Below are positions 27,760 through 44,064 of a DNA stretch of 64,000 nt, piece by piece. Source of the stretch: an uncultured Trueperaceae bacterium (GTDB lineage Bacteria; Deinococcota; Deinococci; Deinococcales; Trueperaceae); NCBI GenBank assembly GCA_937873495.1, contig CALMXZ010000012.1:248001-312000 (forward strand), read 5' to 3'. The notes below the pieces were generated by a model, which was not told where the DNA came from, did no database searches, and saw only the letters and a list, made by a program, of their open reading frames with translations. The position numbers and the translations under genes were made by a program. Each line of letters begins with the position of its first letter. The stretch's first letter is position 1.

Positions 27760-28662
27760 GTGAAGGCCCGCTCGCTCATCACGCTCCTGGCCGCGGCCCT
27801 GACAGGCGCCGCGCTGCTGGCGGCCTGCGCCCCCGGCGCCGCCGTCCTCTCGCCGCCCACGTTCAGGCTGAACGCCGCCGACTCCGGTTTCATCCGCATC
27901 GACCCCCCTGGCGTCGGCGACGGCTCCGCGCTCTTCCGCCTGGCGCTCACCGTCGAGAACCCGAACCCGGTCGGCGTGCGCCTCGCCGGCCTCGACGGCG
28001 ACCTGTACCTGCGGGACGCGCGTGCGGCCTCCTCCTCGTTCCGCGGCGGGATCGACCTGCCGGCTCGCGCCACGGCTCCGCTCGTGCTCGACGTCAAGGT
28101 GCCCCTCGGGGCCGCGCCGATCCTGCTCGACGTGATCGCCAACTTCGTCGCAGGCAACCCAATCCAGTACCGCTTCGATGCGGCCGTCACCATCGACGTC
28201 CTCGGCGCTCCCCAACGCTTCCCCGCCTTCACGCTGGCGCGCGGCGAGCTGTCAAGGCCGGCCGGGCTGGCGGCGCCCCAGTTCGTCCTCACGGGCACGG
28301 AGCTGCGCTTCGAGGCGGTCGACCGCGTGAGGCTCAGCCTGCGAGCCGAGTTGACCAACCCCGGCCTCATCGGCTACCTCGCCGAGGTGCCGCAGGCCAC
28401 GCTGTCCGTCGGCGGCGCGGCGGCCGCGACCGTCGCGCTCGCACCCGTCCAGGTGCCGGGCGGCGGCACCGTGCCCGTCGCCATCGAGTTCACGTTCGCC
28501 CCCTTGAGCCTCGGCGCGGCCATCGCCGCGCAGGTCCAGGCGGCCTCGGTGGGGGTCGGTGGGCTCAGCCTGCAAGTGAACGGCGCCTGGCGCCTCGATG
28601 CGCCAGGCATCGCGACCACGACCTTGGGAGCGACCACCATCCTGCGCGACGCGTTGCGTTAG
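27760..28662 (+). CDS. LEA14/WHy-domain lipoprotein
   Basis: A 300-residue exported lipoprotein with lipobox ALLAAC (Cys at about residue 23). Two tandem LEA14-like (WHy) modules follow. The first contains LALTVENPNPVGVRLAGLDGDLYL at about 65-90; the second contains LSLRAELTNPGLIGYLAEVPQATLSV at about 200-225. The NPN/NPGLIG motifs are the family hallmark. LEA14-type proteins are linked to desiccation and stress tolerance. The last 18 residues are encoded by the first unit of a 56-bp tandem repeat that continues past the stop. Confidence 0.78.
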   Translation: MKARSLITLLAAALTGAALLAACAPGAAVLSPPTFRLNAADSGFIRIDPPGVGDGSALFRLALTVENPNPVGVRLAGLDGDLYLRDARAASSSFRGGIDLPARATAPLVLDVKVPLGAAPILLDVIANFVAGNPIQYRFDAAVTIDVLGAPQRFPAFTLARGELSRPAGLAAPQFVLTGTELRFEAVDRVRLSLRAELTNPGLIGYLAEVPQATLSVGGAAAATVALAPVQVPGGGTVPVAIEFTFAPLSLGAAIAAQVQAASVGVGGLSLQVNGAWRLDAPGIATTTLGATTILRDALR

Positions 28663-28773
28663 GCATCGCGACCACGACCTTGGGAACGACCACCATCCTG
28701 CGCGACGCGTTGCGCCAGGCATCGCGACCACGACCTTCGAAGCGACCACCATCCTGCGCGACGCGTTGCGCTA
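28606..28773. repeat. 56-bp tandem repeat, three copies
   Basis: Copies start at 28606, 28662 and 28718 with period exactly 56 bp and only a handful of substitutions. The first copy encodes the C-terminus of the LEA14-like lipoprotein (GIATTTLGATTILRDALR) and supplies its TAG; copies two and three are downstream. Since 56 is not a multiple of three, each copy shifts frame. The third copy also ends in a TAG. Confidence 0.9.
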
Positions 28774-28843
28774 GACGCCGCCGAGGGCGGCGCCGGGAGC
28801 AGGCCGGTAGCCGGGGCGGCGAGCGCCTCGCCGACGGGGCGGC

Positions 28844-31069
28844 TCAGTCCGTGTCCGACCTGCGCGCTCCGAAACGCGGTAGCCACCAGTTCGATCTTCC
28901 CGCCAGCGTCATCACCGACGGGACGAGCGCGAGCCTGACGAGCGTCGCGTCGAGGATCACCGCCACGCTCAGGCCGACGCCGAGGGTGCGGATCAGCTCG
29001 ACGTGCGAGAAGATGAGCAGGGCGAACACCGTCACCATGACCGCGGCGGCGCTCGTGATCACGCCGCCCGTCGTGGAGATCGCGGTGGCCACCGCGTCGT
29101 GGTCCGACATGCCGCGCTCGTGCGCCTCGTGGATGCGCGCCACCATGAAGACCTCGTAGTCCATGCTCAACCCGAAGACGATGGCGAAGATGAAAAGGGG
29201 CGCGGACGTGTCGACGTAGCCGAGGACCTCGCCCAGCCCGAACAGGCGGTAGAGGATCCCGTCCTGGTGCACGAGCGTCATGACCCCGAACGCGGCGCAG
29301 ACGGTGAGGGCGTTGAGCAGCACGGCCTTGATGGGGATGAGGAGCGACTTGAAGGCCATGCCGAGGAGGAGGGCCGTCGTGAGGGCCACGAGGGCGAGTG
29401 CTAGCGGGAAGTAGGCGTACAACGCCTGTGTCCACTCGGTGCCCTGGACATACACGCCGCCGATCGAGCCGGTCAGGCCCAGTTCGGTGAGCGCCGCCTC
29501 GATTCCACCGTAGACCTGCGCCCCCTGGGCGGGCGTGAGCGCCCCGACGGGCACGAGCTTGGCGAGGGCGTAACGGCCGTCGCCCGACACGGTCGCCCGG
29601 GCCAGGGGCGCGATCTCGCTCGCCAGCGCGAGCTCCGCGGTCGCGTAGTACTGGTAGAGGAAGAGCTTGGGGATGCTCTCGAGCGCCATGGGCGACGACA
29701 CGCCGGCCACGTGCTCCAGCTCGCGCAGCCGCTGCGTGAGGAGCGAGACCTTGCGCACGTTCGCCGGCCGGTAGAAGCCCTCGGCGCCGAAGTCTACGAC
29801 GACGTCGAACGGGTTCAGCAGCCCCTCGAGCCCGAGCCCCTGGAGCGCGTTCAGGGTGCGGCGGGCGTCCGTGCTCGACGTCAGGCCGCGGGCGCCGGGA
29901 TCGGCGACCTGCATCCTGAGCGCCGGGAGCGAGAGGCCGACGAGCACGAGCACGCCCGTCACGAACCAGAAGCGGGGGCGGCGCATGATGCGCGTGGCCT
30001 GATCGCGCCAGAACGCGCGGCTGCGCAGGCCCGGCTCGCGCTTCGTAACGCGCAGCCAGTTCACGCGGTGGCCGAGGAGCGCGAGCGTGGCGGGCACCGC
30101 CGTGATCGCTACGAGGACGCTGACGGACAACACGACCATCGCCCCGACGCCGATCGAGCGGATGAACGCCACGGGCGGGACGAGCAGCGCCATCAGGCCG
30201 ACTATCACGGTGAGGCCGCTGAACGCGACGGCCTTGCCGGCCGTCTCGGCGGTGCGCGCGGCGGCCTTGCGCGCGTCGAACGTGCTGCGCAGCTCCTCCC
30301 TGAAACGGTTGACGATCAGGAGGGCGTAGTCGATACCGGTCGCCAGGCCGAGCATCGTCACGATGGTCTCGGTGAACACGGCGAACTCGATCTGGTGGCC
30401 GACGAAGTACAGCAGGCTCAAGGACGTGATGATCGTCGTGACGGCGCTGAGCAGCGGCAGCACCGACGCCACGACCGCCCCGAACGCCACCACCAGGATG
30501 AGCAGGGAGATGGGCAGGCCGAACACCTCGGCCCTCCTGGCGTCGCGCTCGCTGACCTTCTCGAGCTCGACGACCGTCGCCGGTCCGCCGGAGAGGTCGA
30601 AGCGCAGCGCCTTCACGCCGTCCAGGGCCGCGCGCACGGCCTCGGTCACGCGCTTGCCCTCGTTCAGGCCGGAAGCGTCGAGCCCGACGATGAGCACGGA
30701 GAGGTCGTTGACCTCGTCGAGGAGGTCGAGGCCGCTGGCGGTACGGTAGTCGCGCACGGAGGTCGTTCCCGGAATGAGGGCGAGGCGCGCCTTGGCGTCG
30801 TCGAGGGCCGCGGCGTACTCGGGGCTCCCCGCTCTCACGCTCACGCCGTGGGCGACGGCCACGAGGGTCACCTCCTCGCCGCCCTGGAACGCCGTGGCGA
30901 GCAGGGCCTGGACGGCGGCCGCCGTGCCCTGGCTTGGCGCCTCGGGCTGCGCGCTCAGCACGTCGCCGACCCGCAGGGCGAACGGCAGCGACACGGCGCT
31001 CACCACGAACCAAGCGCCCAACACCCAGCGGGGGTAGCGCGCTACGAGTCCGGCGAGAGCCTTGAACAT
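28844..31069 (-). CDS. MMPL/RND-family membrane transporter
   Basis: A 741-residue efflux protein with two homologous halves, each with one leading membrane helix, a large external loop and a block of about five helices. The diagnostic acidic sites are GLATGIDYALLIVNRFREE (about 245-263) and FGLSMDYEVFMVARIHEAHERG (about 590-611). This layout is that of MmpL and HpnN-type transporters, which export lipids such as glycolipids, hopanoids or mycolates. It is the last gene of an overlapping run that includes a glycosyltransferase and an acyl-condensing enzyme, which favours a lipid substrate. The start is 10 bp after the ATPase stop. Confidence 0.88.
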   Translation of the reverse strand: MFKALAGLVARYPRWVLGAWFVVSAVSLPFALRVGDVLSAQPEAPSQGTAAAVQALLATAFQGGEEVTLVAVAHGVSVRAGSPEYAAALDDAKARLALIPGTTSVRDYRTASGLDLLDEVNDLSVLIVGLDASGLNEGKRVTEAVRAALDGVKALRFDLSGGPATVVELEKVSERDARRAEVFGLPISLLILVVAFGAVVASVLPLLSAVTTIITSLSLLYFVGHQIEFAVFTETIVTMLGLATGIDYALLIVNRFREELRSTFDARKAAARTAETAGKAVAFSGLTVIVGLMALLVPPVAFIRSIGVGAMVVLSVSVLVAITAVPATLALLGHRVNWLRVTKREPGLRSRAFWRDQATRIMRRPRFWFVTGVLVLVGLSLPALRMQVADPGARGLTSSTDARRTLNALQGLGLEGLLNPFDVVVDFGAEGFYRPANVRKVSLLTQRLRELEHVAGVSSPMALESIPKLFLYQYYATAELALASEIAPLARATVSGDGRYALAKLVPVGALTPAQGAQVYGGIEAALTELGLTGSIGGVYVQGTEWTQALYAYFPLALALVALTTALLLGMAFKSLLIPIKAVLLNALTVCAAFGVMTLVHQDGILYRLFGLGEVLGYVDTSAPLFIFAIVFGLSMDYEVFMVARIHEAHERGMSDHDAVATAISTTGGVITSAAAVMVTVFALLIFSHVELIRTLGVGLSVAVILDATLVRLALVPSVMTLAGRSNWWLPRFGARRSDTD

Positions 31070-31079
31070 CCCCCGACGC

Positions 31080-31817
31080 TCAACTGGCCAGGAACATGTC
31101 GATCGCTTGACGGACCTCGGTGCCCTGGGCGCTCACCTCTCCGGCCACGCGGCCGTCGCGCAAGAAGACGATGCGGTCCGCGACGGTGGCAGCGGCCGGG
31201 TCGTGCGTGACCATCACGACCGTCCAGCCGGACTCGTCGACCCCGCGCCTGAGGAGGGCGAGGACCTCGGAGCCGGTCTTCGTGTCGAGGTTGCCGGTCG
31301 GCTCGTCCGCCAGCACCACCGCCGGGTCGTTGATGAGGGCGCGCGCCAGCGCGACCCGCTGCCGTTGGCCGCCCGACAGCTGCCGCGGTCGGTGGTCGAG
31401 GCGGTCCTCGATGCCGAGCAGGGCGGTGAGGCCGGGGAGCTTGGCGCGGGCCTCGGCGAGGCGCCCAGCCACCTCGGCCGGGAGCAGGATGTTCTCCCTG
31501 GCGCTAAGGGAAGGGATTAGCTCGAACGACTGGAAGATGAAACCGAGGTGGTCGCGGCGCATGGCCGTGAGCTCGTCGTCCGACAGGCCGGCCGTCTTCC
31601 GCCCCGCCACCTCGACCGCGCCCGAGTCGGGCTGGTCGAGGAGCCCGAGCATGTGCAGCAAGGTGGTCTTGCCGCTCCCGCTCGGGCCCATGACGGCCAC
31701 GAACTCGCCCGCCGCGACCTCGAGGGTGACGCCCGCGAGCGCCGGGATGGCCTCGTCGCCCAGGTGGTAGCTCTTGCGCAGGTCGCGGGCCGAGATGGAG
31801 AAGGGTTGCTCAGACAT
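31080..31817 (-). CDS. ABC transporter ATPase (LolD/MacB type)
   Basis: A 245-residue nucleotide-binding subunit: Walker A GPSGSGKTTLL, Q-loop FIFQSFELIPSLSARENILL, signature LSGGQRQRVALARAL, Walker B VVLADEPTGNLDTKTG, and the switch VTHDPA. The sequence is typical of the MacB/LolD/FtsE subfamily that pairs with FtsX-type permeases, here the gene immediately upstream, whose stop overlaps this start by 8 bp. ATG at 31817 has GGAG 5 nt upstream; GTG at 31823 is an alternative. These complexes work mechanically on envelope substrates rather than importing solutes. Confidence 0.93.
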   Translation of the reverse strand: MSEQPFSISARDLRKSYHLGDEAIPALAGVTLEVAAGEFVAVMGPSGSGKTTLLHMLGLLDQPDSGAVEVAGRKTAGLSDDELTAMRRDHLGFIFQSFELIPSLSARENILLPAEVAGRLAEARAKLPGLTALLGIEDRLDHRPRQLSGGQRQRVALARALINDPAVVLADEPTGNLDTKTGSEVLALLRRGVDESGWTVVMVTHDPAAATVADRIVFLRDGRVAGEVSAQGTEVRQAIDMFLAS

Positions 31818-34431
31818 GCTCACTCCAGGAGGCGAAGGCTTTCGTTGGCGCCATGTGGGCGGCCCGTCGGGCGGGGAAGAGCGACGCGACCAACCCGACG
31901 ACCGGCGATGCGAGCAGGGCCAGCAGCGCCAGGTGCCACGGCAGGCGCGGCTGCAGTGCGAAGCCCGTCAGGGCGCCGGCGCCGTTCGTGATCACGTTGG
32001 CGAGGAGCAGGCCGAAGCCGACGCCTATCACGGCGCCGATCGCCGTCACGATCACGCCTTCCGCCGTCACCAGCGCGCGCACTCCGCCCCGCGTCAGGCC
32101 GATGGTGCGCAGCACGGCGATCTCGTGACCCTTGTTCACTAGGTTCATGCCCAACGTGTTGGCCACGCCGAGCGCCGCCACGAGCACGGCGATGGCGAGG
32201 AGTATGCGCGTGGTGGCGAAGGCCTGGCTGGTGACGGCGAGGATGTGCTCGCGATAGTCGGCGTTGAGGGTGACGTCGAGGGCCAGTTCGGGGAAGGCGG
32301 CGAGGAGCCGTTCGCGGACCGCCGCCTGCGTGTTGCCCGGCTGGACGGTGAAGATGAAGAGGTTGGGGTTGCCGCCCCCGAACCGGTCGATGCTCCCGAT
32401 GCTGCCGACGACGGCCTCGCCCCCGCCGGTGAAGTCGACGACCACGCCGCCGATAGGGAAAGCCTCGAAGCCGTCGGAGGTCCGCAGCTCCAGGCTGTCG
32501 CCCCTTCCGAGGCCGTAGCGGTCGCGCATGGTGTTGGCCACGAGCATCTGGCCGTCGACGAGCGCGCGGTAGCCCGCCTCGTCGTCGCCCTGGCCGGGCA
32601 GGTACTGGAAGCGCCCGAAGCCGCCCTGCGGGTTGAAGCGCTCCGGGTCGACGAGCACCAGCGCCACGGAGCGCCCGCGGTTGTCCGTGGGCGTAGGCGG
32701 GGTGTCGGTCGGCGGCCCGCTGTCGACCGGCAGCTTGCTGCCGACGCTCTCCCTGAACCGCACGGCCGTGATCTTGACGCCGCTCACGACGTCGACACCA
32801 GGGACGGCGCCGGCCCGCTCGACGAAGTCGTCGGGGAAGGTGACAGGGGTGGTGACGAACAGGTCGCCGACGACGGTCGTGTCGATCCAGTCGGAGATGG
32901 CGCGGTTGGTGCTGGCCACCATGCTCCCGACGCCGATCACGAGGCCCGTGCCGACCACCACGGTGCCGATCGCCACGCCGTTGCGACCCGCGTTGCGCTG
33001 GGCCGCGTCGGCGCCGAGGCGACCGGGCGCGCCGAGGAGCCTGGTGAGCGGGCCCCTCGCCAGGCGGCTGACGGTCGGCAGCAGGGCGGGGGCCGTGAGC
33101 GAGACGCCGACGAAGAACAGCCCGAGCGCCGCGGTGGTGGCGTAGAGGGCGGTCGTGCCTGGCCACGGCAGGAGCGCGGCGACCACCCCGAGCGCGGTCG
33201 CCAGCAGGCCGAGCAGCACGGTGCTCCGCGGCACAGGACCGGAGGCCGCCTGCAGCGAGGCTATCGGCGACGCCTTGCCGGCGTTCAGCGCCGGGACGAC
33301 GCCGGCCACGAGCGCCGCCGCCACGCCGAGGACGCTCGCTATGATCACGTTCTTGACGGGGATCACGAGCGTCCTGAACTCGTAACCGAGCGTGGTGGCG
33401 TTCACGTACGTCATGAGGTAGGAGAGCGCAATGCCGAGCAGGACGCCGGCCACGACGCCAAGGCCGGCGAGCGCGAGCGCCTCGTAGACGGCCAGCCGCC
33501 TGACGCCGGCGCGCGTCATGCAGATGGTACGCAGGAGCGCGTACTCGCCGCCCCGCTCGACCACGGTAGCCATCAGGCTGTTGTAGGCGAGGAACGCGCC
33601 GAGGGCGAGGAGCGTGGCGGCCAGGACGCTCAACCCCGACTGCAGCGTCTGGACGATCCCGAACGTGAAGTCGCCGGTCGTGGCGGGCAACGTCACGGTG
33701 TAGTCGTCACCGACGACGGCGGTGAGCCTCAGCCTGGTGGCGTCGACCTGGTCGGCGCTGACGGCCTCGACCTCGAGGTTGGAGACGCGCCCTTCCAGGC
33801 GGAGCACGCGCTGGAGGTCGGTCAGGTGCATGATGCCTACGCGGCCCCCGTTGGTGCTCGCCACCCCGACGGCGTCGTCGAGAAGCCCGGTCACGGTGAA
33901 CTCGGCGGGTCCGCCCGAGGTGGTGAACGCGACGGAGTCGCCGACCGCGATCCCGCGCGAGCGCGCGAAGCCGTCGGCGATGGCGATGCCGAGCGACCCG
34001 GCGGCGGGCAGCGCGCCGCTATCAAGGCTCGCGGGTAGGTCGTCCGGGTGGTCGGTGAGGCGGCCCTGGATCTGGAAGCCGCTGTCGATGCCGGGGATGA
34101 CGGAGCGGTCGACGACGCGCTCCGAGCGGGCCGGCTCCGCGCGCGTCTGGAGCACGGGGTAGGCGGCCCTGACGCCGTCAGTCGCCCTGACGGCGCCGAG
34201 GAGCGGCTCCTCGGCGAAGACCGCGCGGCCTCCCGGGCCGGGCGTAACGACGAGGTCCGCTTTACCCGCCGCCGCTTGCAGCGCGCTTCGCAGGTTCGCC
34301 TCGACGTTGGCCCCGACGGAGAGGGTCGTGAGCACCGCGGCGATGCCGAGGCCGATGCCAAGGGTGGTGGCGAGCGCGCGCCATGGGTGTCTGAAGAGGT
34401 TGCGCAGCGCCATGCGCCAGAGCGTGCTCAC
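31810..34431 (-). CDS. FtsX-family ABC permease, duplicated form
   Basis: An 873-residue permease with two FtsX cores. Each has an N-terminal helix, a large MacB-type periplasmic domain and three C-terminal helices. The first core is residues about 20-380 (ALATTLGIGLGIAAV, then FLAYNSLMATVVERGGEYALLRTICMTR). The second is about 480-860 (GVAIGTVVVGTGLVIGVGSM, then LGVANTLGMNLVNKGHEIAVLRTIGLTRGG). This matches LolE-like or DevC-like lipid and lipoprotein exporters. Its GTG start overlaps the glycosyltransferase stop as GTGA, and its end overlaps the ATPase gene. Confidence 0.9.
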   Translation of the reverse strand: MSTLWRMALRNLFRHPWRALATTLGIGLGIAAVLTTLSVGANVEANLRSALQAAAGKADLVVTPGPGGRAVFAEEPLLGAVRATDGVRAAYPVLQTRAEPARSERVVDRSVIPGIDSGFQIQGRLTDHPDDLPASLDSGALPAAGSLGIAIADGFARSRGIAVGDSVAFTTSGGPAEFTVTGLLDDAVGVASTNGGRVGIMHLTDLQRVLRLEGRVSNLEVEAVSADQVDATRLRLTAVVGDDYTVTLPATTGDFTFGIVQTLQSGLSVLAATLLALGAFLAYNSLMATVVERGGEYALLRTICMTRAGVRRLAVYEALALAGLGVVAGVLLGIALSYLMTYVNATTLGYEFRTLVIPVKNVIIASVLGVAAALVAGVVPALNAGKASPIASLQAASGPVPRSTVLLGLLATALGVVAALLPWPGTTALYATTAALGLFFVGVSLTAPALLPTVSRLARGPLTRLLGAPGRLGADAAQRNAGRNGVAIGTVVVGTGLVIGVGSMVASTNRAISDWIDTTVVGDLFVTTPVTFPDDFVERAGAVPGVDVVSGVKITAVRFRESVGSKLPVDSGPPTDTPPTPTDNRGRSVALVLVDPERFNPQGGFGRFQYLPGQGDDEAGYRALVDGQMLVANTMRDRYGLGRGDSLELRTSDGFEAFPIGGVVVDFTGGGEAVVGSIGSIDRFGGGNPNLFIFTVQPGNTQAAVRERLLAAFPELALDVTLNADYREHILAVTSQAFATTRILLAIAVLVAALGVANTLGMNLVNKGHEIAVLRTIGLTRGGVRALVTAEGVIVTAIGAVIGVGFGLLLANVITNGAGALTGFALQPRLPWHLALLALLASPVVGLVASLFPARRAAHMAPTKAFASWSEHV

Positions 34432-35660
34432 GTGCGCCAGTGTACTTGTACGGCCCGCCGGCCCGGAGCCGCGGCGAGGGTCGCCTTGCTCACGCTCTCG
34501 AAGTTGCCGAGCGCTCCGGGAGCGGCGACCGGCAGGGCCTCGCCGCGCGCCATGGCGGCGATGAGCGCCGCCGCCCGCGCCGTCATGCCGGGGAAGTCGA
34601 GGGCCGCGGCGGTTCGCGCCGCCGCGGCGAGGCGCTCAGGGGCGTCGCGCCAGGCCGTCGCCGCTTTGCCTACCTCACCGACCTTCGTCAGGCCGCCGAG
34701 CCCGTGCGCTGCGAGGAACCTCACCACCGCGAGCTCGTTCAGGCCGGCGTAGGCCGTCACGAGGACGGGCCTGCCTACGGCCAGCGCCTCCATCGTGCTG
34801 GCCGGGCCGGCCTTGCCGACGACGACGTCGGCCGCGCTCAGGAGCTTGGCCATCTCGTTGGTGAAGCCGAACACCGTCAGGCCGGCGCGTGTTCCGGCCA
34901 GCGCCTCGAGCCTTGATCGCAGTTCGGCGTTGCGCCCGGCCACGGCCAGCACCGCCACGCCGCTGTCCAGCAGGCGCTCGACCATCACGAGCGCCTCGCC
35001 GGCCACGCCCTCCGCCCCCAACGACAGAAGGCAGGTGAAGCCGTCGGCGAGCCCGAGCTCCGAGCGCGCGGCGGCCCGCGTGCTCGGATGGAGGAAGGCC
35101 TGCCTCACCGGGTAACCGACGACCCGCAGCCGGTCGTCCGGCACGCCGAGGCGCGCGAGGTCGGCTGCCGCCGCCAGGCTGGGCGCCAGGACGAGCTCCG
35201 AGCGCGGCTCCGACCACAGGGCGCTGGCGTCGAACGGCTCGGTCGCGAAGACGCCGACGGGCGCCCGGAGCCCGTAACGACCGCGCGCCGCTGCGAAGAC
35301 CGTCGCGAGCCAGCCGTGGTTCGCGACCACCAGGTCGGGGGCCAGCTCGTTCAGCTCCTTGGCGATGCGCCTCGCGAACGAGTCGAGCAGCGCGCCCTGC
35401 GACGCGCGCGTCACGGCCGGCGTAAGGTCCATGACCTTCTGACCCCACCTGACGAGCCGCGGTTGCGCGAGCAGCGCCTTCCACTGCGCCTTGTGGCGCC
35501 GGTCGAGCTCGGCGGCGCCGAACTCCGCCATGACGTCGCTGACGCGCGTCTCGAACTCGCCCTCGTAGCCGGCGTGCAGCGCTTCGGAGAGGGCCGTCGC
35601 CGTGGCGACGTGGCCGCCGCCGGCCGCGATGGTGGCGAAGAAGACGGCGCGCCTGCTCAT
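34428..35660 (-). CDS. MGDG-synthase-type glycosyltransferase
   Basis: A 410-residue enzyme of the GT28/MurG-like group. The N-terminal lipid-acceptor domain begins FFATIAAGGGHVATATALSEAL, and VVANHGWLATVFAA follows. The C-terminal sugar-nucleotide domain has VFGFTNEMAKLLSAADVVVGKAGPASTMEALAVGRPVLV. This is the arrangement of plant MGDG synthase and bacterial processive diacylglycerol glucosyltransferases, which add hexose to a lipid such as diacylglycerol or ceramide at the membrane surface. ATG overlaps the upstream SDR stop as ATGA; the longer frame upstream is Arg-rich and discarded. Confidence 0.87.
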   Translation of the reverse strand: MSRRAVFFATIAAGGGHVATATALSEALHAGYEGEFETRVSDVMAEFGAAELDRRHKAQWKALLAQPRLVRWGQKVMDLTPAVTRASQGALLDSFARRIAKELNELAPDLVVANHGWLATVFAAARGRYGLRAPVGVFATEPFDASALWSEPRSELVLAPSLAAAADLARLGVPDDRLRVVGYPVRQAFLHPSTRAAARSELGLADGFTCLLSLGAEGVAGEALVMVERLLDSGVAVLAVAGRNAELRSRLEALAGTRAGLTVFGFTNEMAKLLSAADVVVGKAGPASTMEALAVGRPVLVTAYAGLNELAVVRFLAAHGLGGLTKVGEVGKAATAWRDAPERLAAAARTAAALDFPGMTARAAALIAAMARGEALPVAAPGALGNFESVSKATLAAAPGRRAVQVHWRT

Positions 35661-36691
35661 CGCTTGTGCCCCGGGAGACCGGTACGTTGGCGCTTGCCGC
35701 CGCTCGGCGCCACGCCGAGGGCGGCCACGCTCCTGGCGATGCCCTCGCGCCACGTGTAGCGCGGCGCGTAGCCGAGCTCCTCCACCGCGTGGCGCAAGGA
35801 GAAGTGGACGTCGTTCAGCATCAGCCCGGCCCGGTAACTCGTCACGGGCGGTTCGGTGCGCGGGAAGAGGGTCGACCAGGTTGCCTCGACGCCCGTGGCG
35901 AGGGCGCGGGTCGGCCTGCCAGGCAGCCGCAGGCGGGGCGAGTCCCCGCCGACTGCCTGCGCGACGGCGTCGAAGAGCTCCCGCCAGCTTGGCATGCCGT
36001 TATCGGCCAGCACGTACACGTGGCGGGCGGCGGCCGGGGCGTGGAGCGCTAGCACCACCCCGTGGGCGAAGTTCGGCGCGTAGGCGGTGTTGATGACCGT
36101 CGTGCCGCGCCGCACCAACGGCAGGGTGCCGGTCAGGACGGCGTTGGCCACCCTGCCGAACGTGGCGTCGCGTTCGCCGAAGGGCCACAGGCCCGGACGC
36201 ACGACGACGCCCTCGAGGCGCTTCTCGCCAAGTACGAGGTCCTCGGCGAGGATCTTCGAGTAGGCGTAGGCGTTGCGCACGTTGTCGCGCGGTTGAGTGC
36301 GCGGGTCGGCGTCCCTGAAGCCGGAGTAGCGGTGGACCGCGACGCTCGAAACGAACACGAAGCGCGAGCAGCCCGCGCCGGCCGCCTCGTGCAGCAGCGC
36401 CCTGGTGCCAACCACGTTGGTGCGGTAGAAGGCGTCCCACGGACCCCAGTCGGCCACGCGGGCGGCGGCGTGGACGACGGCGTCTACCCCCTCGCAGACC
36501 CCGCGCACGCTCGCCTCGTCCGTGAGGTCGGCGCGGGTCACCTCCAGCCGCTCGTTGTCGAGGAGGTGGGCGAGGTTGGCGTCCGAGCCCCACGGCGTGA
36601 CGAGGGCGCGAACGGCGTCGCCGTTGGCGAGCAGTGCCTCGCTGACATGGCTCCCCAGGAAGCCGTGGGCCCCGGTGACGAGTACCTTCAT
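35657..36691 (-). CDS. Extended SDR, NAD-dependent epimerase/reductase family
   Basis: A 344-residue oxidoreductase. The Rossmann motif VTGAHGFLG is at residues 5-13, and the active-site Tyr142-x-x-x-Lys146 is in AYAYSKILAEDL. Extended SDRs of this type (3-beta-HSD-like) include sugar epimerases, dihydroflavonol reductases and the bacterial ceramide-pathway reductase CerR. Its place between an SPT-like synthase module and a lipid glycosyltransferase makes a 3-keto lipid reductase role attractive, but this is inference. TACCGT lies 7 nt before the ATG, suggesting an internal promoter. Its stop overlaps the glycosyltransferase start. Confidence 0.85.
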   Translation of the reverse strand: MKVLVTGAHGFLGSHVSEALLANGDAVRALVTPWGSDANLAHLLDNERLEVTRADLTDEASVRGVCEGVDAVVHAAARVADWGPWDAFYRTNVVGTRALLHEAAGAGCSRFVFVSSVAVHRYSGFRDADPRTQPRDNVRNAYAYSKILAEDLVLGEKRLEGVVVRPGLWPFGERDATFGRVANAVLTGTLPLVRRGTTVINTAYAPNFAHGVVLALHAPAAARHVYVLADNGMPSWRELFDAVAQAVGGDSPRLRLPGRPTRALATGVEATWSTLFPRTEPPVTSYRAGLMLNDVHFSLRHAVEELGYAPRYTWREGIARSVAALGVAPSGGKRQRTGLPGHKR

Positions 36692-36698
36692 CGCATCG

Positions 36699-36704
36699 AC
36701 GGTA
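36699..36704 (-). promoter_or_regulatory. Leaderless-type -10 box for the SDR gene
   Basis: TACCGT on the minus strand lies 7 nt before the SDR ATG, within the 25-bp gap after the CPBP-like gene, so transcription may restart here. Confidence 0.4.
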
Positions 36705-36716
36705 GCAGGTTGCGGC

Positions 36717-37454
36717 TCAGTTGAGCAGGTGTCCGGTGCGCGCGAGGACCGCCACGTCGAGCGAGAGGCCTATGACCAGGTGCAGGAGCGCCGGGTAGAG
36801 GATCGAACGCGAGCGCACGGCCAGTACCGCGAAGAGCAGCGAGGCGGGGGCGGCGGCGAGCACTTCGACGACCGGCTTGCCCAGGTGCACGAGCGTGGCC
36901 ATCGCGACGCTCAGCCATACCGCGGCCGCCGGCGTGGCGGCGCGCGTGGCGACGTCGAGCACGAAGCCGCGGTAGAAGGCCTCGAACGACAGGTAGTAGC
37001 AAGCGTAGGCGACGAGCCAGATGGCCATGGTGGTGAGGCTGCGGCCCGCCCACTGCCCGGGCCAGGGATAGGTGGTCGCGAGGGCCGGGTCGGAGCTAGC
37101 GAACGCCATGAGCACCGCCGCCGCCAGCGCGAGCGGGACCACGGCCGCGAGCCCGAAGCGCCAGTCGCCGAGGCGCAGCCCGGCCGGTTCGAGGTGGCCG
37201 ATCAGCACGCGGTAGAGGACGGCGGGGACGAACAGGAGGAGCACGACGGACCAAGCGACGCTGTTCACGGCCGTCACCGGGTCTTGCGGCGCGAGGCGCA
37301 GGATGGTCGGCCCCGGGGTGGCTAGGTACCAGAACGCGGCCTGTAGGCCGAGGGAGGCGAACAGCAAGAACCAGTACTTGGCGCGCTCGCCCCGCGGCGC
37401 CAGCTCGCCGAGATCGGCCAGCACGAGCCGCAAGGCGGCGGCCGGGCGACTCAC
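36717..37454 (-). CDS. CPBP-like (type II CAAX protease family) membrane protein
   Basis: A 245-residue protein with about seven hydrophobic segments. The CPBP signature is partly present: FEAFYRGFVLDV occupies motif 1, where the family has EExxxR; the Arg and second Glu are there but the first Glu is Phe. MATLVHLGKP supplies the motif-2 His, and LLHLVIGLSLD the third. Loss of the first Glu may mean it is not a protease. GTG overlaps the upstream GNAT stop as GTGA, so it is co-translated with the lipid genes. A longer frame upstream is Arg-rich and rejected. Confidence 0.72.
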   Translation of the reverse strand: MSRPAAALRLVLADLGELAPRGERAKYWFLLFASLGLQAAFWYLATPGPTILRLAPQDPVTAVNSVAWSVVLLLFVPAVLYRVLIGHLEPAGLRLGDWRFGLAAVVPLALAAAVLMAFASSDPALATTYPWPGQWAGRSLTTMAIWLVAYACYYLSFEAFYRGFVLDVATRAATPAAAVWLSVAMATLVHLGKPVVEVLAAAPASLLFAVLAVRSRSILYPALLHLVIGLSLDVAVLARTGHLLN

Positions 37455-38560
37455 AACTCCTTCTGCACCAGCCGGTACGTTTTGTAGCGCTTCCCTCCGA
37501 TCGCCTCGATGGCCCGGTTGATGGCGTGGTTGTCCTCGAGGGTCCAGCCGCACTCGCCCTCCTGGACGCCGACGGCCTTGGCGCGGCGCACGACCTCGTC
37601 GATGAGCACCAGGTCGAAGCCGCGGTTGCGGTACTCGGGCAGGACGCCGAGGATCATGAGCCTGGCCCGGTTCACGATCCGCTTGCGCCGGAGCAGGGGG
37701 AGGATGCCGTTGATGAGCCGACCGTCGAAGCGCGCCAGGACCTGGTTGAGGTCGGGGATGGCGATGCACACGGCGACGGGCTCGCCCTTGAGCTCGAGGA
37801 ATAGCGCCATCTCCGGGTCGATGATCATCTTGAGGTCGTTGGCGAGGTGCTCGATCTCGGAGTTCGTGAAGGGGACGTTGCCCCAGTTCTTCTCCCACGC
37901 TGCGTGGTGGATGCGCTGGAGGACCTTCACTTCCTCGTGGAGGCGCTTCATGTCGGCCGTACGGATCACCGGCTGGTAGCGCTCGCGCGCCCGGTGGGTG
38001 AGGCGCTTGACGCGCTCAGGGACCCGGCCCTCGTTGACGACGTGGAACGCGTACAGGTCCTTGACCTTGGCGTAGCCGGCGGCCGCGGCCCAGGTGAGGT
38101 ACTTGGCGGGGCTCTGCGGCATCATCACGTAGGGCAGCTCGTCGAAGGCGTCCAGCTGGAAGCCGGCGCCGTCGTTCATCGTCGGGTTGACCGGCCCGCG
38201 GAGCGCCCGCCTGCCAAGGCCGCGCGCCTCCGCCTCCACCGCGGCGAACAGCGCGGCCGCGACCGCCTCGTTCTCGGCCTCGAAGAAGCCGAAGAAAGCG
38301 AGGTTGTCGTCCGGGTGGGTCTGGTTGTGCAGGTCGTCGTCGAGCATGGCGATGCGGCCGACCACCTTGCCGCCCTCGCGCGCCAGGTAAAGAGTGGCGC
38401 GCGCATGCTCGAAGAACGGGTTCTTCTTCTGGTCGAGGAGCTCGAACTGGGAGACGCGTAGCGGCGCCACCCAGGTCGGGTCGGACGCGTACTTGCGGTA
38501 CGGGTAGAGGACGAACTCCCTGAACGCTCGACGACCGCTGACGCGCTCGACGTTGACCAT
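37451..38560 (-). CDS. Large GNAT-type N-acyltransferase, candidate ceramide synthase
   Basis: A 369-residue protein much longer than simple acetyltransferases. The first half has WVAPLRVSQFELLDQKKNPFFEH and RGPVNPTMNDGAGFQLDAFDELPYVMMPQSP, a set of blocks I associate with a bacterial GNAT-like family often next to serine palmitoyltransferase genes. The second half (ARLMILGVLPEYRNRGFDLVLIDEVVRRA) is a clear GNAT acyl-CoA site with loop PEYRNRGFD, and ends WTLEDNHAINRAIEAIGGKRYKTYRL. It starts 7 bp after the SPT-like stop. N-acylation of a sphingoid base is an inference from context. Confidence 0.7.
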   Translation of the reverse strand: MVNVERVSGRRAFREFVLYPYRKYASDPTWVAPLRVSQFELLDQKKNPFFEHARATLYLAREGGKVVGRIAMLDDDLHNQTHPDDNLAFFGFFEAENEAVAAALFAAVEAEARGLGRRALRGPVNPTMNDGAGFQLDAFDELPYVMMPQSPAKYLTWAAAAGYAKVKDLYAFHVVNEGRVPERVKRLTHRARERYQPVIRTADMKRLHEEVKVLQRIHHAAWEKNWGNVPFTNSEIEHLANDLKMIIDPEMALFLELKGEPVAVCIAIPDLNQVLARFDGRLINGILPLLRRKRIVNRARLMILGVLPEYRNRGFDLVLIDEVVRRAKAVGVQEGECGWTLEDNHAINRAIEAIGGKRYKTYRLVQKEL

Positions 38561-38567
38561 GCGCGCC

Positions 38568-39803
38568 CTAGATGACTCCGAAACGCCTGCCGACCTCCGC
38601 GAATGCGTGGAGGAGACGGTCGAGGTGCTCCGGTTCGTGGTTGGCGTTGACGCTCGTGCGGATGATGGACCTGCCAGGAGCCACGCCAGGCGGCAGGGCG
38701 GGCGTCGTGAAGACGTCCAGCTCCCAGAGCGCCTTCCAGAAAGCCATCGTGAGCTCGTCCGGTCCGATCAGGACGGGTACGATCGGGGTCTGTGACCCGA
38801 GGGTGTCGAACCCGAGCGCGTTCATGCCGTCGCGCAAGTGCTTCACGTTGCGCCAGAGCTTGTCGAGGTGCTCCGGCTCGGACTCGATGATGTTGAGGGC
38901 CTCGAGGGCGGCGGCCATCTGCATGGCGGGCAGCGCCGCCGTGAAGATGAAAGGCCTGGCGTGGTGCTTGACGTAGTTCACCACCGCGCGGTCGCCGGCC
39001 ATGAAGCCGCCGACGCTGGCGAACGACTTGGAGAAGGTGCCGACGATGACGTCGACCTCGTCCTCGAGGCCGAAGTGCTCGCCCGTGCCGCGGCCGTGCT
39101 TGCCGAGGACGCCGCTGGCGTGGGCGTCGTCGACGATCAGCCGCGCCCCGTAGCGCTTCTTCAGCTTCACGATGCCAGGCAGGTCGGCGATATGGCCGCT
39201 CATGGAGAACACACCGTCCGTGACGATGATCCTGCCGCCCGGCTTGCCGGCGTCGGCCTCCAGCATGCGCTCGAGGTCGGCCAGGTCGCCGTGCTCGTAC
39301 TTGCGCAAGGTGGCGTAGGAGAGGCGCGCGGCGTCGTAGAGCGAGGCGTGGTTCTCGCGGTCGTAGTAGAGGATGTCGTGCCTGCCGGCGAGTGCCGAGA
39401 CGACGGAGAGGCAGCCGAGGAAGCCGGCGCTGAAGGTGAGGACGGCTTCGCGTTGGAAGAAGACCGCGAGGCGGCGCTCGAGCTCCTCGTGGAGCGTCAG
39501 GGTGCCGGTCAGGAAGCGTGAGCCCGTGCAGCTCGTGCCGAAGTCGTCGAGGGTGCGCCTGGCCGCCTCCTTGAGGCGCGGGTCCTGGGTGAGGCCCAGG
39601 TAGTCGTTCGAGCCGGTGATGACCATCTCGCGGCCCGCGACCGTGACCGTGCCGCCGTGCTGCGAGGCGATGGCCTTGAAGTACGGGTGCATGCCCATGC
39701 TCACGGCCTCGTCCGCCCTGCGGAACTGGATGGCCTTCGTGAACGCGTCCTGCGCCTTGACTACCGGCGCCCTGTCACTTCCGCTGGGCATGACCTCTGA
39801 CAA
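38568..39803 (-). CDS. Serine-palmitoyltransferase-like alpha-oxoamine synthase
   Basis: PLP enzyme condensing an amino acid with an acyl thioester. With the TTG start (GGAGG 5 nt upstream, 411 residues), the PLP lysine is Lys259 in GTFSKSFASVGGF. His152 (NHASLYD) stacks on the cofactor; Asp225 and His228 (VDDAHASG) contact it. MGMHPYFKAI, GTSCTGSRFLTGTLTLHEELE and RPFIFTAALP resemble bacterial SPTs more than KBL (RFICGT, LGKALG) or BioF (FGKALGS). The Thermus KBL/BioF enzyme, as I recall it, lacks the FSKS motif. ATG at 39791 or 39845 are alternative starts. It heads the eight-gene lipid run. Confidence 0.75.
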   Translation of the reverse strand: MSEVMPSGSDRAPVVKAQDAFTKAIQFRRADEAVSMGMHPYFKAIASQHGGTVTVAGREMVITGSNDYLGLTQDPRLKEAARRTLDDFGTSCTGSRFLTGTLTLHEELERRLAVFFQREAVLTFSAGFLGCLSVVSALAGRHDILYYDRENHASLYDAARLSYATLRKYEHGDLADLERMLEADAGKPGGRIIVTDGVFSMSGHIADLPGIVKLKKRYGARLIVDDAHASGVLGKHGRGTGEHFGLEDEVDVIVGTFSKSFASVGGFMAGDRAVVNYVKHHARPFIFTAALPAMQMAAALEALNIIESEPEHLDKLWRNVKHLRDGMNALGFDTLGSQTPIVPVLIGPDELTMAFWKALWELDVFTTPALPPGVAPGRSIIRTSVNANHEPEHLDRLLHAFAEVGRRFGVI

Positions 39804-40603: not shown

Positions 40604-41527
40604 GTGAACGACGGGGTCCTCGACGTCGTGAGCGTGTCGCTCGGTTCGGTCAAGCGCGACACGGACCAGGAGGTCGAGGTGCTCGGCAGGCGCGTGCGCC
40701 TCAGGCGGGTCGGCACCGGCGGCGACCTCGCCGCGGCGCGCGCCATGATCGAGGAGCTCGACGGCAAGGTGGACGCCATCGGGCTGGGCGGCATCGACCT
40801 CTACTTCGCCGTCAAGGACAAGCGTTACTACGTGCGTGACGCGTTGCGCCTGGCGCGCGCCGCCAAGCTCACGCCCGTCGTCTGCGGCGCCGGTCTCAAG
40901 AACACGCTGGAGCGCATGAGCATCCGGGCGCTCGCCCCGACGCTCGCTTGGCCCGGCAGGCGCGTCCTGATGGTGTCCGCCGTCGACCGCTTCGGGATGG
41001 CTGAGGAGCTCGCGCGCCAGGGGGCCGACGTCTTCTACGGCGACGTCGTCTTCGCGCTCGGCCTGCCCGTGCCGGTCCGCACCCTAGGGGGCCTGGTGCG
41101 CCTCGCCAACGTGCTGGCGCCGATCGTCGTGCGGGTGCCGTTCAAGTGGCTCTACCCGACCGGCAGCGCGCAGGAGAAGGAGCCGGACGAGCGTAAGTTC
41201 GCCCGCTACTACGAATGGGCCGAGGTCCTCGCCGGCGACTGGCACTTCATCAAGCGTTACGCCCCGGCCTCGCTCGCCGGCAAGGTCGTGCTGACGAACA
41301 CCACGACCCCGGACGACGTCGAATTCCTCCGGCGCAGGGGGGCGAGCAAGCTGATCACCACCACGCCGCGCTTCGGCGGACGGAGCGTCGGCACGAACCT
41401 GCTCGAGGCCACCTTCGTCGCCATGGAGGGCGCCAGGGGCGAGCTGACCCCGGAGCGCTACGCCGAGCTCGTGACGGCCGCCCGCCTGGAGCCGACCACG
41501 ATCGACCTGCAGGGCGGAGCGGCCTGA
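40604..41527 (+). CDS. Quinate/shikimate 5-dehydrogenase-like protein
   Basis: A 307-residue protein of a family annotated quinate 5-dehydrogenase in Deinococcus. Visible blocks are VSLGSVKRDTDQEVEVLGRRVRLRRVGTGGDL, AIGLGGIDLYFAVKDKRYYVRDALRL, and KLITTTPRFGGRSVGTNLLEATFVAM. The final block suggests a nucleotide- or substrate-binding loop. I do not see a textbook NAD Rossmann motif, so enzymatic function is unproven. It starts with GTG 25 bp after the GNAT gene and ends 128 bp before efp. Confidence 0.6.
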   Translation: MNDGVLDVVSVSLGSVKRDTDQEVEVLGRRVRLRRVGTGGDLAAARAMIEELDGKVDAIGLGGIDLYFAVKDKRYYVRDALRLARAAKLTPVVCGAGLKNTLERMSIRALAPTLAWPGRRVLMVSAVDRFGMAEELARQGADVFYGDVVFALGLPVPVRTLGGLVRLANVLAPIVVRVPFKWLYPTGSAQEKEPDERKFARYYEWAEVLAGDWHFIKRYAPASLAGKVVLTNTTTPDDVEFLRRRGASKLITTTPRFGGRSVGTNLLEATFVAMEGARGELTPERYAELVTAARLEPTTIDLQGGAA

Positions 41528-41655
41528 CCCCGTCGTCGCTAGGACCATTACTGCCCGGGTGGTAAGCTTGAACCGTCTTGAGCCCTGCTACCGCGCGGTC
41601 GGGAGCTCGCGAGATCGAGCCGCCCCGCGGCGCAAGCGCGTCGGAGGATAACTAG

Positions 41656-42213
41656 ATGATCAGCGTGACTGACCTGAGGAACGGCACCAAGGTCGAGATG
41701 GACGGCGGCCTGTGGGAGTGCGTCGATTACCAGCATCAGAAGATCGGCCGAGGCGGGGCCAAGATGGTGGCCAAGTTCCGCAACCTGGAGACGGGCTCCA
41801 TCGTCGAGCGGTCGTTCAACGCTACGGAGAAGCTGCAGGACATCTTCATCGAGTACCGCCAGATGAGCTTCTTGTACGGCGACGGCGACGAGTACACCTT
41901 CATGGACCTCGAGACGTTCGAACAGCCCATCCTCACCAAGGCCCAGATCGGCGACGGCTCCCGCTTTCTCAAGGAGAACACCGAGGTCACGGTCGACTAC
42001 TACGGCGGCAAGCCGCTCAAGGTCACCCTACCGAACGTCGTCGAGCTGACGATCGTCGAGACCGACCCTGGCGTGCGCGGCGACACGGTCTCGGGCGGCT
42101 CCAAGCCGGCCAAGCTCGAGTCTGGTGCGGTGGTCAACGTCCCCCTCTTCATCGAACGGGGTGAGGTCATCAGGGTCGACACCCGCTCGGGCGACTACTT
42201 GGGCAGGGCCTGA
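41656..42213 (+). CDS. efp: Elongation factor P
   Basis: A 185-residue factor that relieves ribosome stalling at polyproline. Three beta-barrel domains are complete, ending VKVDTRTGEY-like (here [14 protein letters not shown]), with [14 protein letters not shown] joining domains II and III. The tip loop KIGRGGAKM carries Arg where E. coli has the beta-lysylated Lys. I recall the Thermus EF-P also having Arg here. No epmA, epmB or earP is present in the window. GGAGG lies 9 nt before the ATG. It heads the efp-accB-accC-asp23-nusB-folD run. Confidence 0.95.
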
Positions 42214-42214
42214 C

Positions 42215-42709
42215 GTGGACGTCAAGGAGATCCGGCGCCTGCTCGAGGCCCTCGCGGCCACGGACGTGCGGGAGTTCACCTACGAGACGGGGGACTACAA
42301 GCTGACCCTCAAGCGCGGGGAGGAGGCCAGGCAGACGATAACGTACCTGCCGCCCACCGCGGCTCTCCCCGTGCAGCAGGCCCCCGTGCAGGTCGGGCAA
42401 GCCTCGCAAGCCTCGGCGCCGGAAGCCGCCGCTCCCGTGGTGGTGGCCTCGTCGTCGCCGGCCTCGAAGCTCGTCGAGGTGCAGGCGCCCATCGTCGGCA
42501 CGTTCTACGCTTCGCCCGCCCCCGACGCCGGGCCCTTCGTCAAGGTCGGCGATCGGGTCGCGGCCGGCACGGTCCTGTGCATCATTGAGGCGATGAAGCT
42601 CATGAACGAGATCGAGGCGGAAGGCGCCGGTGTCGTGCGTGAGGTGCTGGTCGGGAACGGCGAGCCGGTCGAGTACGGCCAGGTCCTGTTCCGCATCGAG
42701 CCGGCCTGA
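42215..42709 (+). CDS. accB: Biotin carboxyl carrier protein of acetyl-CoA carboxylase
   Basis: Carries biotin between the carboxylase and carboxyltransferase for malonyl-CoA synthesis. The N-terminus ([24 protein letters not shown]) is the standard first helix. A Pro/Ala/Gln linker spans about residues 45-85. The lipoyl-like domain carries biotinylated Lys128 in [17 protein letters not shown] lies one base after the efp stop and gives 164 residues; the longer frame overlapping efp is Ser/Arg-rich and false. accC follows immediately. Confidence 0.93.
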
Positions 42710-42717
42710 GTGCGCCC

Positions 42718-44064
42718 GTGAGCGCGATGTTCCGCAAGATCCTCATCGCCAACCGCGGCGAGATCGCGTTGCGCATCCTGCGGGCGGCGCGCGAGCTCGG
42801 GGTGCAGACGGTGGTCGCGTACTCCAAGGCCGACGAGAACTCGCTCCCCGTGCTGCTGGCCGACGAGTCCATCTGCATCGGACCCGCCCCGGCGCCCGAG
42901 AGCTACCTCAACGTCCGCAACCTGCTGGCGGCCGCCCTCGTGAGCGGCGCCGAGGCCATCCACCCCGGCTACGGCTTCCTGGCCGAGAACGCCGAGTTCG
43001 CTGCCATGTGCGAGGAGCACGGCCTCACCTTCATCGGGCCGAGGCCGGAGAGCATCTCCCGCATCGGCGACAAGGCCTCCGCGCGTGCCCTGGCCGTCGA
43101 GGCCGGCGTGCCCATCACGCCAGGCAGCGGACCCCTCCCCGACCTGCCGGCCGCCACGCGCTTCGCTGACGAGATCGGCTTCCCCCTGATCCTCAAGGCT
43201 TCCGCCGGCGGGGGCGGGCGCGGCATGCGCGTCGTGCACAACCACGCAGACCTCGAGCGCCAGTTCTACAACGCTCAGGAGGAGGCGCGCGCCGCCTTCG
43301 GCAACCCCGAGCTCTACATGGAGAAGTACCTAGAGGAGCCCAAGCACATCGAGATCCAGGTGTTCGGCGACGGCAACGGCGAGGTCGTTCACCTCTTCGA
43401 GCGCGACTGCTCCATCCAACGCCGCTACCAGAAGGTGCTCGAGGAAGGTCCTAGCACGCTCGCGCCCGAGCTGAGGGCCAGGATCGCCGAGTCGGCCGTG
43501 CGCCTCGCCAAGTACATCGACTACCGCGGGGCGGGCACCTGCGAGTTCCTCGTAGACAAGAGCGGCGGCTACTACTTCTCCGAGATGAACACGCGCATCC
43601 AGGTCGAGCACCCCGTCACGGAGATGATCACCCAGACGGACCTGGTGCAAGAGCAGCTGCGCGTGGCCGCCGGTCTCGGCATGGCGTTCAAGCAGTCCGA
43701 GCTCGCCGTGCGGGGCCACGCCATCGAGCTGCGCGTCAACGCCGAGGACCCGGACCATGACTTCAGGCCGAGCGCGGGCGTGATAACCGACGTGCACTGG
43801 CCGGGAGGCCCTGGCATCAGGGTCGACTCGCACGTGTACGCCGGCTACCGCATCCCTCCCAACTACGACAGCCTGATCGCCAAGATCATCGCCTGGGCGC
43901 CGAGCCGCGAAGAGGCCATCGCCCGGATGGAGCGCGCGCTCAAAGAGACTGTCGTGGAGGGCGTCAAGACGACCATCCCGTTCCACCTGAAGGTCCTTGG
44001 CAACGCGTTCTTCAGGCGCGGCGACGTGTACACGAACTTCATCGCTCGTAGGATGAGCTCATGA
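42718..44064 (+). CDS. accC: Biotin carboxylase subunit of acetyl-CoA carboxylase
   Basis: ATP-grasp enzyme carboxylating the biotin of AccB. It begins FRKILIANRGEIALRILRA. The glycine-rich ATP lid KASAGGGGRGMRVV is near residue 160. EKYLEEPKHIEIQVFGD, ERDCSIQRRYQKVLEE and EMNTRIQVEHPVTEMIT are the conserved catalytic and metal blocks. Length 448 matches E. coli AccC. GTG at 42718 is used; ATG three codons later is an alternative. The stop overlaps the following Asp23 start. accA and accD are not in the window. Confidence 0.96.
   Translation: MSAMFRKILIANRGEIALRILRAARELGVQTVVAYSKADENSLPVLLADESICIGPAPAPESYLNVRNLLAAALVSGAEAIHPGYGFLAENAEFAAMCEEHGLTFIGPRPESISRIGDKASARALAVEAGVPITPGSGPLPDLPAATRFADEIGFPLILKASAGGGGRGMRVVHNHADLERQFYNAQEEARAAFGNPELYMEKYLEEPKHIEIQVFGDGNGEVVHLFERDCSIQRRYQKVLEEGPSTLAPELRARIAESAVRLAKYIDYRGAGTCEFLVDKSGGYYFSEMNTRIQVEHPVTEMITQTDLVQEQLRVAAGLGMAFKQSELAVRGHAIELRVNAEDPDHDFRPSAGVITDVHWPGGPGIRVDSHVYAGYRIPPNYDSLIAKIIAWAPSREEAIARMERALKETVVEGVKTTIPFHLKVLGNAFFRRGDVYTNFIARRMSS

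Follow-up and report, generated by a model that had tools for sequence, protein, structure and literature searches.

A probable sphingolipid operon in Trueperaceae with a non-CerR dehydrogenase in the place of the ceramide reductase

Introduction

Do members of the Deinococcota carry genes for making sphingolipids and, if so, which enzyme takes the place of the ceramide reductase? The question is raised by a run of eight genes in an uncultured Trueperaceae bacterium (GenBank assembly GCA_937873495.1, contig CALMXZ010000012.1), found on the minus strand at 28844-39803 of a 64,000-nucleotide stretch (contig positions 248,001 to 312,000) that is referred to as the window. A first-pass annotation, made from the letters of this DNA, had read the run as a locus that condenses, acylates, reduces, glycosylates and exports a ceramide-like lipid. 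The core ceramide enzymes have been characterised in Caulobacter (PMC11087976, PMC11324152), and bacterial sphingolipid gene sets are already reported from 38-40 phyla (PMC11334938). From its genes, we consider the run to be probably a sphingolipid operon that makes glycosylceramide, with an extended short-chain dehydrogenase/reductase (SDR), here called SDR2, standing in for the ceramide reductase CerR. The identities, linkage and phylogeny of the genes were observed directly, whereas the catalytic steps and the lipid product are predicted from them.

The synthase and the acyltransferase

The first gene of the run (38568..39803, minus strand; TTG start behind GGAGGAG) encodes an SPT-like alpha-oxoamine synthase of 411 amino acids, a candidate serine palmitoyltransferase (SPT). 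In a quick tree of 74 rows, with SH-aLRT as the only support measure, long outgroup branches and CqsA not among the rows, this protein was placed outside KBL (from E. coli and its own genome), Thermus KBL/BioF, BioF and ALAS and inside a group with known SPTs, supported by 95 when cysteate acyltransferase is included and by 90 without it. Within this group it falls into a subclade (support 98) whose further members come from Trueperaceae, from Rubrobacter-type bacteria (three sequences), from the sister family f3 (four genomes) and from Acidobacteria (three). The catalytic His/Asp/His/Lys residues are present, as is GTFSKS, a motif characteristic of SPTs (PMC10196870) that is missing from the KBL, BioF, ALAS and cysteate enzymes compared. 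Furthermore, the Ser of the GSR motif is kept, where cysteate acyltransferase has Ala, KBL Val and ALAS Thr. The best PDB match was the SPT of Sphingobacterium multivorum (338 bits), compared to 294 for Thermus KBL/BioF and 253 for cysteate acyltransferase. SerpalmtaseCFB NF047600 was the best-scoring NCBIfam model at 427.8 bits, with its cut-off of 640 missed; judged by these scores the window synthase is SPT-like, yet no member of the curated NF047600 subgroup. The SPT-like synthase proposed in the first-pass annotation was thus borne out by tree position and GTFSKS, and nesting in KBL or BioF was not seen.

Close relatives of the synthase within the phylum (at least 56% identity) are limited to Trueperaceae (f1) and f3, the next being KBL/BioF-like proteins with at most 45%. 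The nearest named relatives are in Rubrobacter, and the proteins encoded on a plasmid of Rubrobacter radiotolerans are 72% (SPT) and 54% (GNAT) identical to those of the window.

The second gene (37451..38560, minus strand) encodes a bCerS-type tandem-GNAT N-acyltransferase of 369 amino acids. A bCerS-type profile, built from the GNATs of sphingolipid clusters in Sphingomonas, Roseomonas, E. coli (YghO), Streptomyces and Aureispira, matched the window GNAT alone in its own genome, over the full length (338 bits, E 6e-101), and so confirmed the affinity to bCerS that had been suggested for it. Caulobacter CC_1154 and CerR were not in the comparison sets, where cluster homologues from Sphingomonas, Roseomonas and E. 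coli served as stand-ins. The same GNAT adjoins SPT in Rubrobacter, Acidobacteria, Myxococcota, Gemmatimonadota, Zixibacteria and others, and SPT, GNAT and reductase form a recurrent cluster among 80 loci from many phyla. The AlphaFold model (pLDDT 91.6) predicts a tandem GNAT fold, and its structural matches include N-myristoyltransferases; such a fold by itself shows no function. Profile match and SPT linkage make this protein a candidate ceramide synthase, which would acylate the long-chain base.

The reductase slot

The fourth gene (35657..36691, minus strand) encodes the extended SDR that the first-pass annotation had likened to CerR. This expectation failed. Against profiles of operon-linked CerRs the window SDR scored 131-163 bits, compared to about 220-420 for most full-length CerRs, and in the reductase tree it lies in a separate SDR2 clade (support 95), outside the single clade formed by 25 CerRs (support 99); canonical CerR is therefore rejected on both profile scores and tree. 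OleD (2-alkyl-3-oxoalkanoate reductase) and HpnA were rejected as well, the NCBIfam scores of 148 and 141 bits being below the respective cut-offs of 580 and 368.

The family was represented by 39 genomes, 22 with SPT and 17 without. Five SPT-bearing genomes (G076, G077, G078, G080 and G103) encode CerRs that score in the canonical range, the other operon-bearing genomes have SDR2, and CerR and SDR2 were never found together in one SPT-bearing genome of the family. Genome G103 carries SPT-GNAT-CerR, and on a second contig CerR followed by the glycosyltransferase and FtsX, an arrangement which implies that CerR and CPBP-SDR2 occupy the same operon slot. In a careful tree of SPT and bCerS, the label switches between CerR and SDR2 at least twice on starred branches and three times on the best tree. 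One row that decides this count, G095, is from a genome with 9% contamination, but its SDR2 and SPT share a contig.

The SDR2s of SPT-bearing operons retain the Rossmann Gly, Tyr and Lys. In genus g8, with neither SPT nor operon GNAT, SDR2 persists, but along a branch of 1.27 changes per site its TGAHG has turned into TRAEG, which removes the NAD-binding Gly, and the catalytic Lys has disappeared. This decay is the pattern expected if the redox chemistry of SDR2 serves the product of SPT and bCerS. The SDR2 reading frame is intact at the three g8 loci L235, L236 and L237, a pseudo-enzyme beside the glycosyltransferase and FtsX.

The CPBP/Rce1-like membrane protein encoded by the third gene (36717..37454, minus strand; Pfam PF02517, 36.5 bits) has its E/R motif and two His motifs conserved. 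It travels with SDR2, both in the operons and in genomes G073 and G074, as well as in a Clostridia metagenome-assembled genome (MAG; L154), where GNAT, CPBP and SDR2 stand together and SPT is located elsewhere in the genome.

The shared slot, the repeated swapping and the decay in g8 argue that SDR2 does the job of CerR, and we infer from these gene patterns that SDR2 and the adjacent CPBP protein replace it. It is possible, at somewhat less than an even chance, that the two constitute a second, independently evolved ceramide-reducing module which repeatedly displaced CerR in Trueperaceae and is also present in at least one Clostridia MAG.

The glycosyltransferase

The fifth gene (34428..35660, minus strand) encodes a GT28/UgtP-MGDG-like glycosyltransferase of 410 amino acids, recognised by PF04101 and UgtP-like models and a candidate ceramide glycosyltransferase. 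It misses the cut-offs of the MGDG model PF06925 (23.1 of 25 bits) and of UgtP NF010135 (68.6 of 500), and belongs to a wider GT28-like group. A homologue is found after CerR in the actinobacterial MAG L103 and in G103, so that the proposed tie between glycosyltransferase and ceramide genes holds outside the phylum as well. The interval between this gene and FtsX is filled in relatives by genes for LPG-synthase-TM proteins, GT4, UDP-galactopyranose mutase, GT2 and an SDR-SDR fusion, which are compatible with the building of glycolipids. The fusion, of an extended and a classical SDR (L034:12757-14598 and L103:14157-16019), is common to Trueperaceae clusters and the actinobacterial MAG. Glycosylation of ceramide by enzymes of this cluster is plausible.

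Proposed pathway and alternatives

In the pathway we propose, SPT would condense a fatty acyl thioester with an amino acid, for which serine is the likeliest candidate, into a 3-keto long-chain base, to which the tandem-GNAT bCerS would attach a second acyl chain. SDR2, with or beside the CPBP protein, would then reduce the 3-keto group, the glycosyltransferase would add a sugar to yield glycosylceramide, and MMPL, perhaps together with the older FtsX-LolD, would move the product towards the outer membrane.

Apart from the mismatch between the window SDR and CerR, several findings weigh against this reading. Genome G084 has SPT and bCerS with neither SDR2 nor a CerR-grade reductase. Genus g8 keeps the pair of SDR2 and glycosyltransferase without SPT, which means that the glycosyltransferase may act on another lipid. 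As the synthase scores below the NCBIfam cut-off for SPT, its substrate could be serine, alanine or glycine. Finally, the export genes follow SPT only in part, or not at all.

These last three genes of the run encode a duplicated FtsX/MacB-type permease (31810..34431), its partner, a LolD/MacB-type ABC ATPase (31080..31823), and an MMPL transporter (28844..31069), all on the minus strand. The permease and ATPase miss the equivalog cut-offs of LolCE (106.7 of 362) and LolD (205.9 of 308). The transporter belongs to the MMPL superfamily and has MmpL3 as its nearest solved structures, with the MmpL3 cut-off (NF052608) missed at 254 of 1400 bits. FtsX is encoded in 35 of the 39 family genomes, 19/22 with SPT and 16/17 without, and several SPT-less genomes have FtsX-LolD in the same EF-P/acc neighbourhood but no sphingolipid genes there. 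A role as sphingolipid-specific exporter thus finds no support for FtsX-LolD, which has probably been at this locus for longer. MMPL is present in 15/22 SPT-bearing versus 3/17 SPT-less genomes (Fisher p 0.003, uncorrected for shared descent), and one of the three SPT-less carriers, G109, lacks SPT only since its contig ends inside that gene. This partial association makes MMPL a reasonable exporter candidate. Export was part of the first-pass annotation, and what stands of it is the presence of the genes in the run and a partial link for MMPL; for FtsX and LolD, near-universal in the family, the sphingolipid link is not supported. We see an even balance between export of the sphingolipid and the alternative that FtsX-LolD, and with it MMPL, export something else, such as a lipoprotein or another glycolipid, and owe their place in the run only to the descent of the locus. 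The apparent single transcription unit and the enrichment of MMPL speak against this alternative.

It is unlikely, in our judgement, that SDR2 and CPBP have another job, for example a sugar or polyketide-type modification, in which case SPT, bCerS and the glycosyltransferase would give a keto-ceramide or a glycosylated lipid, with the 3-keto reduction unlinked or missing. Such a role is in line with the similar scores of SDR2 for OleD, HpnA and CerR profiles, and with the retention of SPT and bCerS in G084, but does not explain why CerR and SDR2 exclude each other in one slot and were swapped repeatedly, or why SDR2 decays where SPT is absent.

We give a similarly low probability to a synthase that uses alanine, glycine or cysteate and directs the run to 1-deoxysphingolipids or a sulfonolipid instead of classical ceramides. 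The clade of the window SPT is separate from classical SPTs, and environmental bacteria with 1-deoxysphingolipids are reported in PMC11334938. The sulfonolipid (cysteate) option is made less likely by the PDB match scores, by Ser instead of Ala in the GSR motif and by GTFSKS instead of STFAKS.

A KBL/BioF-type housekeeping synthase in an unrelated envelope operon is very improbable and largely refuted, since the NCBIfam KBL and BioF models score high too but tree and motif reject this identity, the genome has a separate KBL gene, and the linkage to bCerS extends across phyla.

Organisation of the locus

The tight packing of the eight genes that drew attention to the run was confirmed for open reading frames, spacings and domains. 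In the order of transcription the spacings are +7, -4, +25, -4, -4, -14 (-8 if the ATG at 31817 is used) and +10 bp, and the eight domain calls match the Pfam/NCBIfam assignments of the window proteins, which for the synthase include Aminotran_1_2. Terminator-like sites were not found on the minus strand within the run, nor did a promoter scan reveal a sigma-70-like site. The order SPT-GNAT-CPBP-SDR-glycosyltransferase-(inserted genes)-FtsX-LolD-MMPL recurs within the genus and, as the first-pass annotation required of its reading, in most SPT-bearing Trueperaceae, among which the core operon genes are mostly 40-98% identical. The cluster also appears to be carried by the cultured Truepera radiovictrix, the species to which we tentatively assign genome G108.

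Conserved neighbours mark both ends. Divergent genes on the plus strand (40604..44064) lie upstream, encoding EF-P (41656), an AccB-like protein (42125) and AccC (42718), and the first of them (40604-41527) had no Pfam match. Downstream there is a convergent LEA_2-domain gene (27760..28662, plus strand) and, immediately behind the MMPL gene, a tandem repeat with 3.1 copies of a 56-bp unit (28599-28774).

LpxC is encoded in 35/39 Trueperaceae, including the genome studied here (contig 73619-74365, outside the window). It was not found in the Thermus and Deinobacterium controls, nor in the family genomes G084 (one contig, SPT-positive), G085 and G089. This pattern suggests that Trueperaceae have lipid A, with lineage-specific loss. 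A sphingolipid that replaces lipopolysaccharide, as in Sphingomonas, is not supported as a family trait by this distribution.

Comparison with known systems

The run shares with Caulobacter crescentus (Spt, bCerS and CerR; CC_1162-1165, CC_1154) an Spt-type synthase, a GNAT-type bCerS and an extended SDR nearby. Unlike Caulobacter, it has no AcpR/AasR beside SPT and no LptF2/G2 or CPG genes, its SDR is not CerR, and it includes the CPBP protein, the glycosyltransferase, FtsX/LolD and MMPL. The S. multivorum SPT (3a2b, 8guh) resembles the window synthase in active-site residues and GTFSKS, but the window protein belongs to another subclade and falls below the NF047600 cut-off.

Another parallel is the SPT-GNAT-CerR trio on plasmid 1 of R. 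radiotolerans (NZ_CP007515; L081:13917-17284). The Rubrobacterales-like MAG L103 adds the glycosyltransferase and shares with Trueperaceae an LPG-synthase-TM protein, the SDR-SDR fusion and GT4. Unlike the window, both have a canonical CerR in place of CPBP-SDR2, and FtsX, LolD and MMPL were not found alongside. The plasmid location of the trio and the 72% identity of its SPT suggest transfer between Rubrobacter-type bacteria and Trueperaceae.

A complete-looking sphingolipid cluster was also seen in some E. coli, where a plasmid record (L085:2570-13125) holds SPT, acyl carrier protein, a CerR-like protein, fatty acyl-AMP ligase, YghO (bCerS-type) and LptF/LptG beside glc genes.

The same gene logic is found in the Spt-like "clade B" genes of Black Sea MAGs, which PMC11334938 traces through 38-40 phyla. 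That survey used known CerR as query, so that a replacement of the SDR2 type would escape it, and its main text does not mention Deinococcota.

Implications

A search of the open literature for sphingolipids of Deinococcota, Truepera and Rubrobacter returned nothing relevant. The suggestion in the first-pass annotation that sphingolipids are undescribed in the phylum stands as far as no Deinococcota paper was found, but it carries limited weight, since PMC11334938 already has Spt-like genes from 38-40 phyla. What is new is the variant, in which CerR has repeatedly been displaced by SDR2 with CPBP in a Trueperaceae cluster equipped for glycosylation. If the SDR2-CPBP module is real, genome surveys that require CerR miss it, and the bacterial ceramide reductase step would have two unrelated solutions. 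The repeated swap would then be a natural experiment on the order, the place and the electron source of the reduction, a question posed in PMC11087976.

The type strain of T. radiovictrix has a complex mixture of glycolipids that was never characterised in detail (PMC3072082). Together with the cluster in G108, this makes the prediction directly testable by lipidomics. If the proposed reading is true, a radiation-tolerant branch of the Deinococcota would have glycosphingolipids in its envelope.

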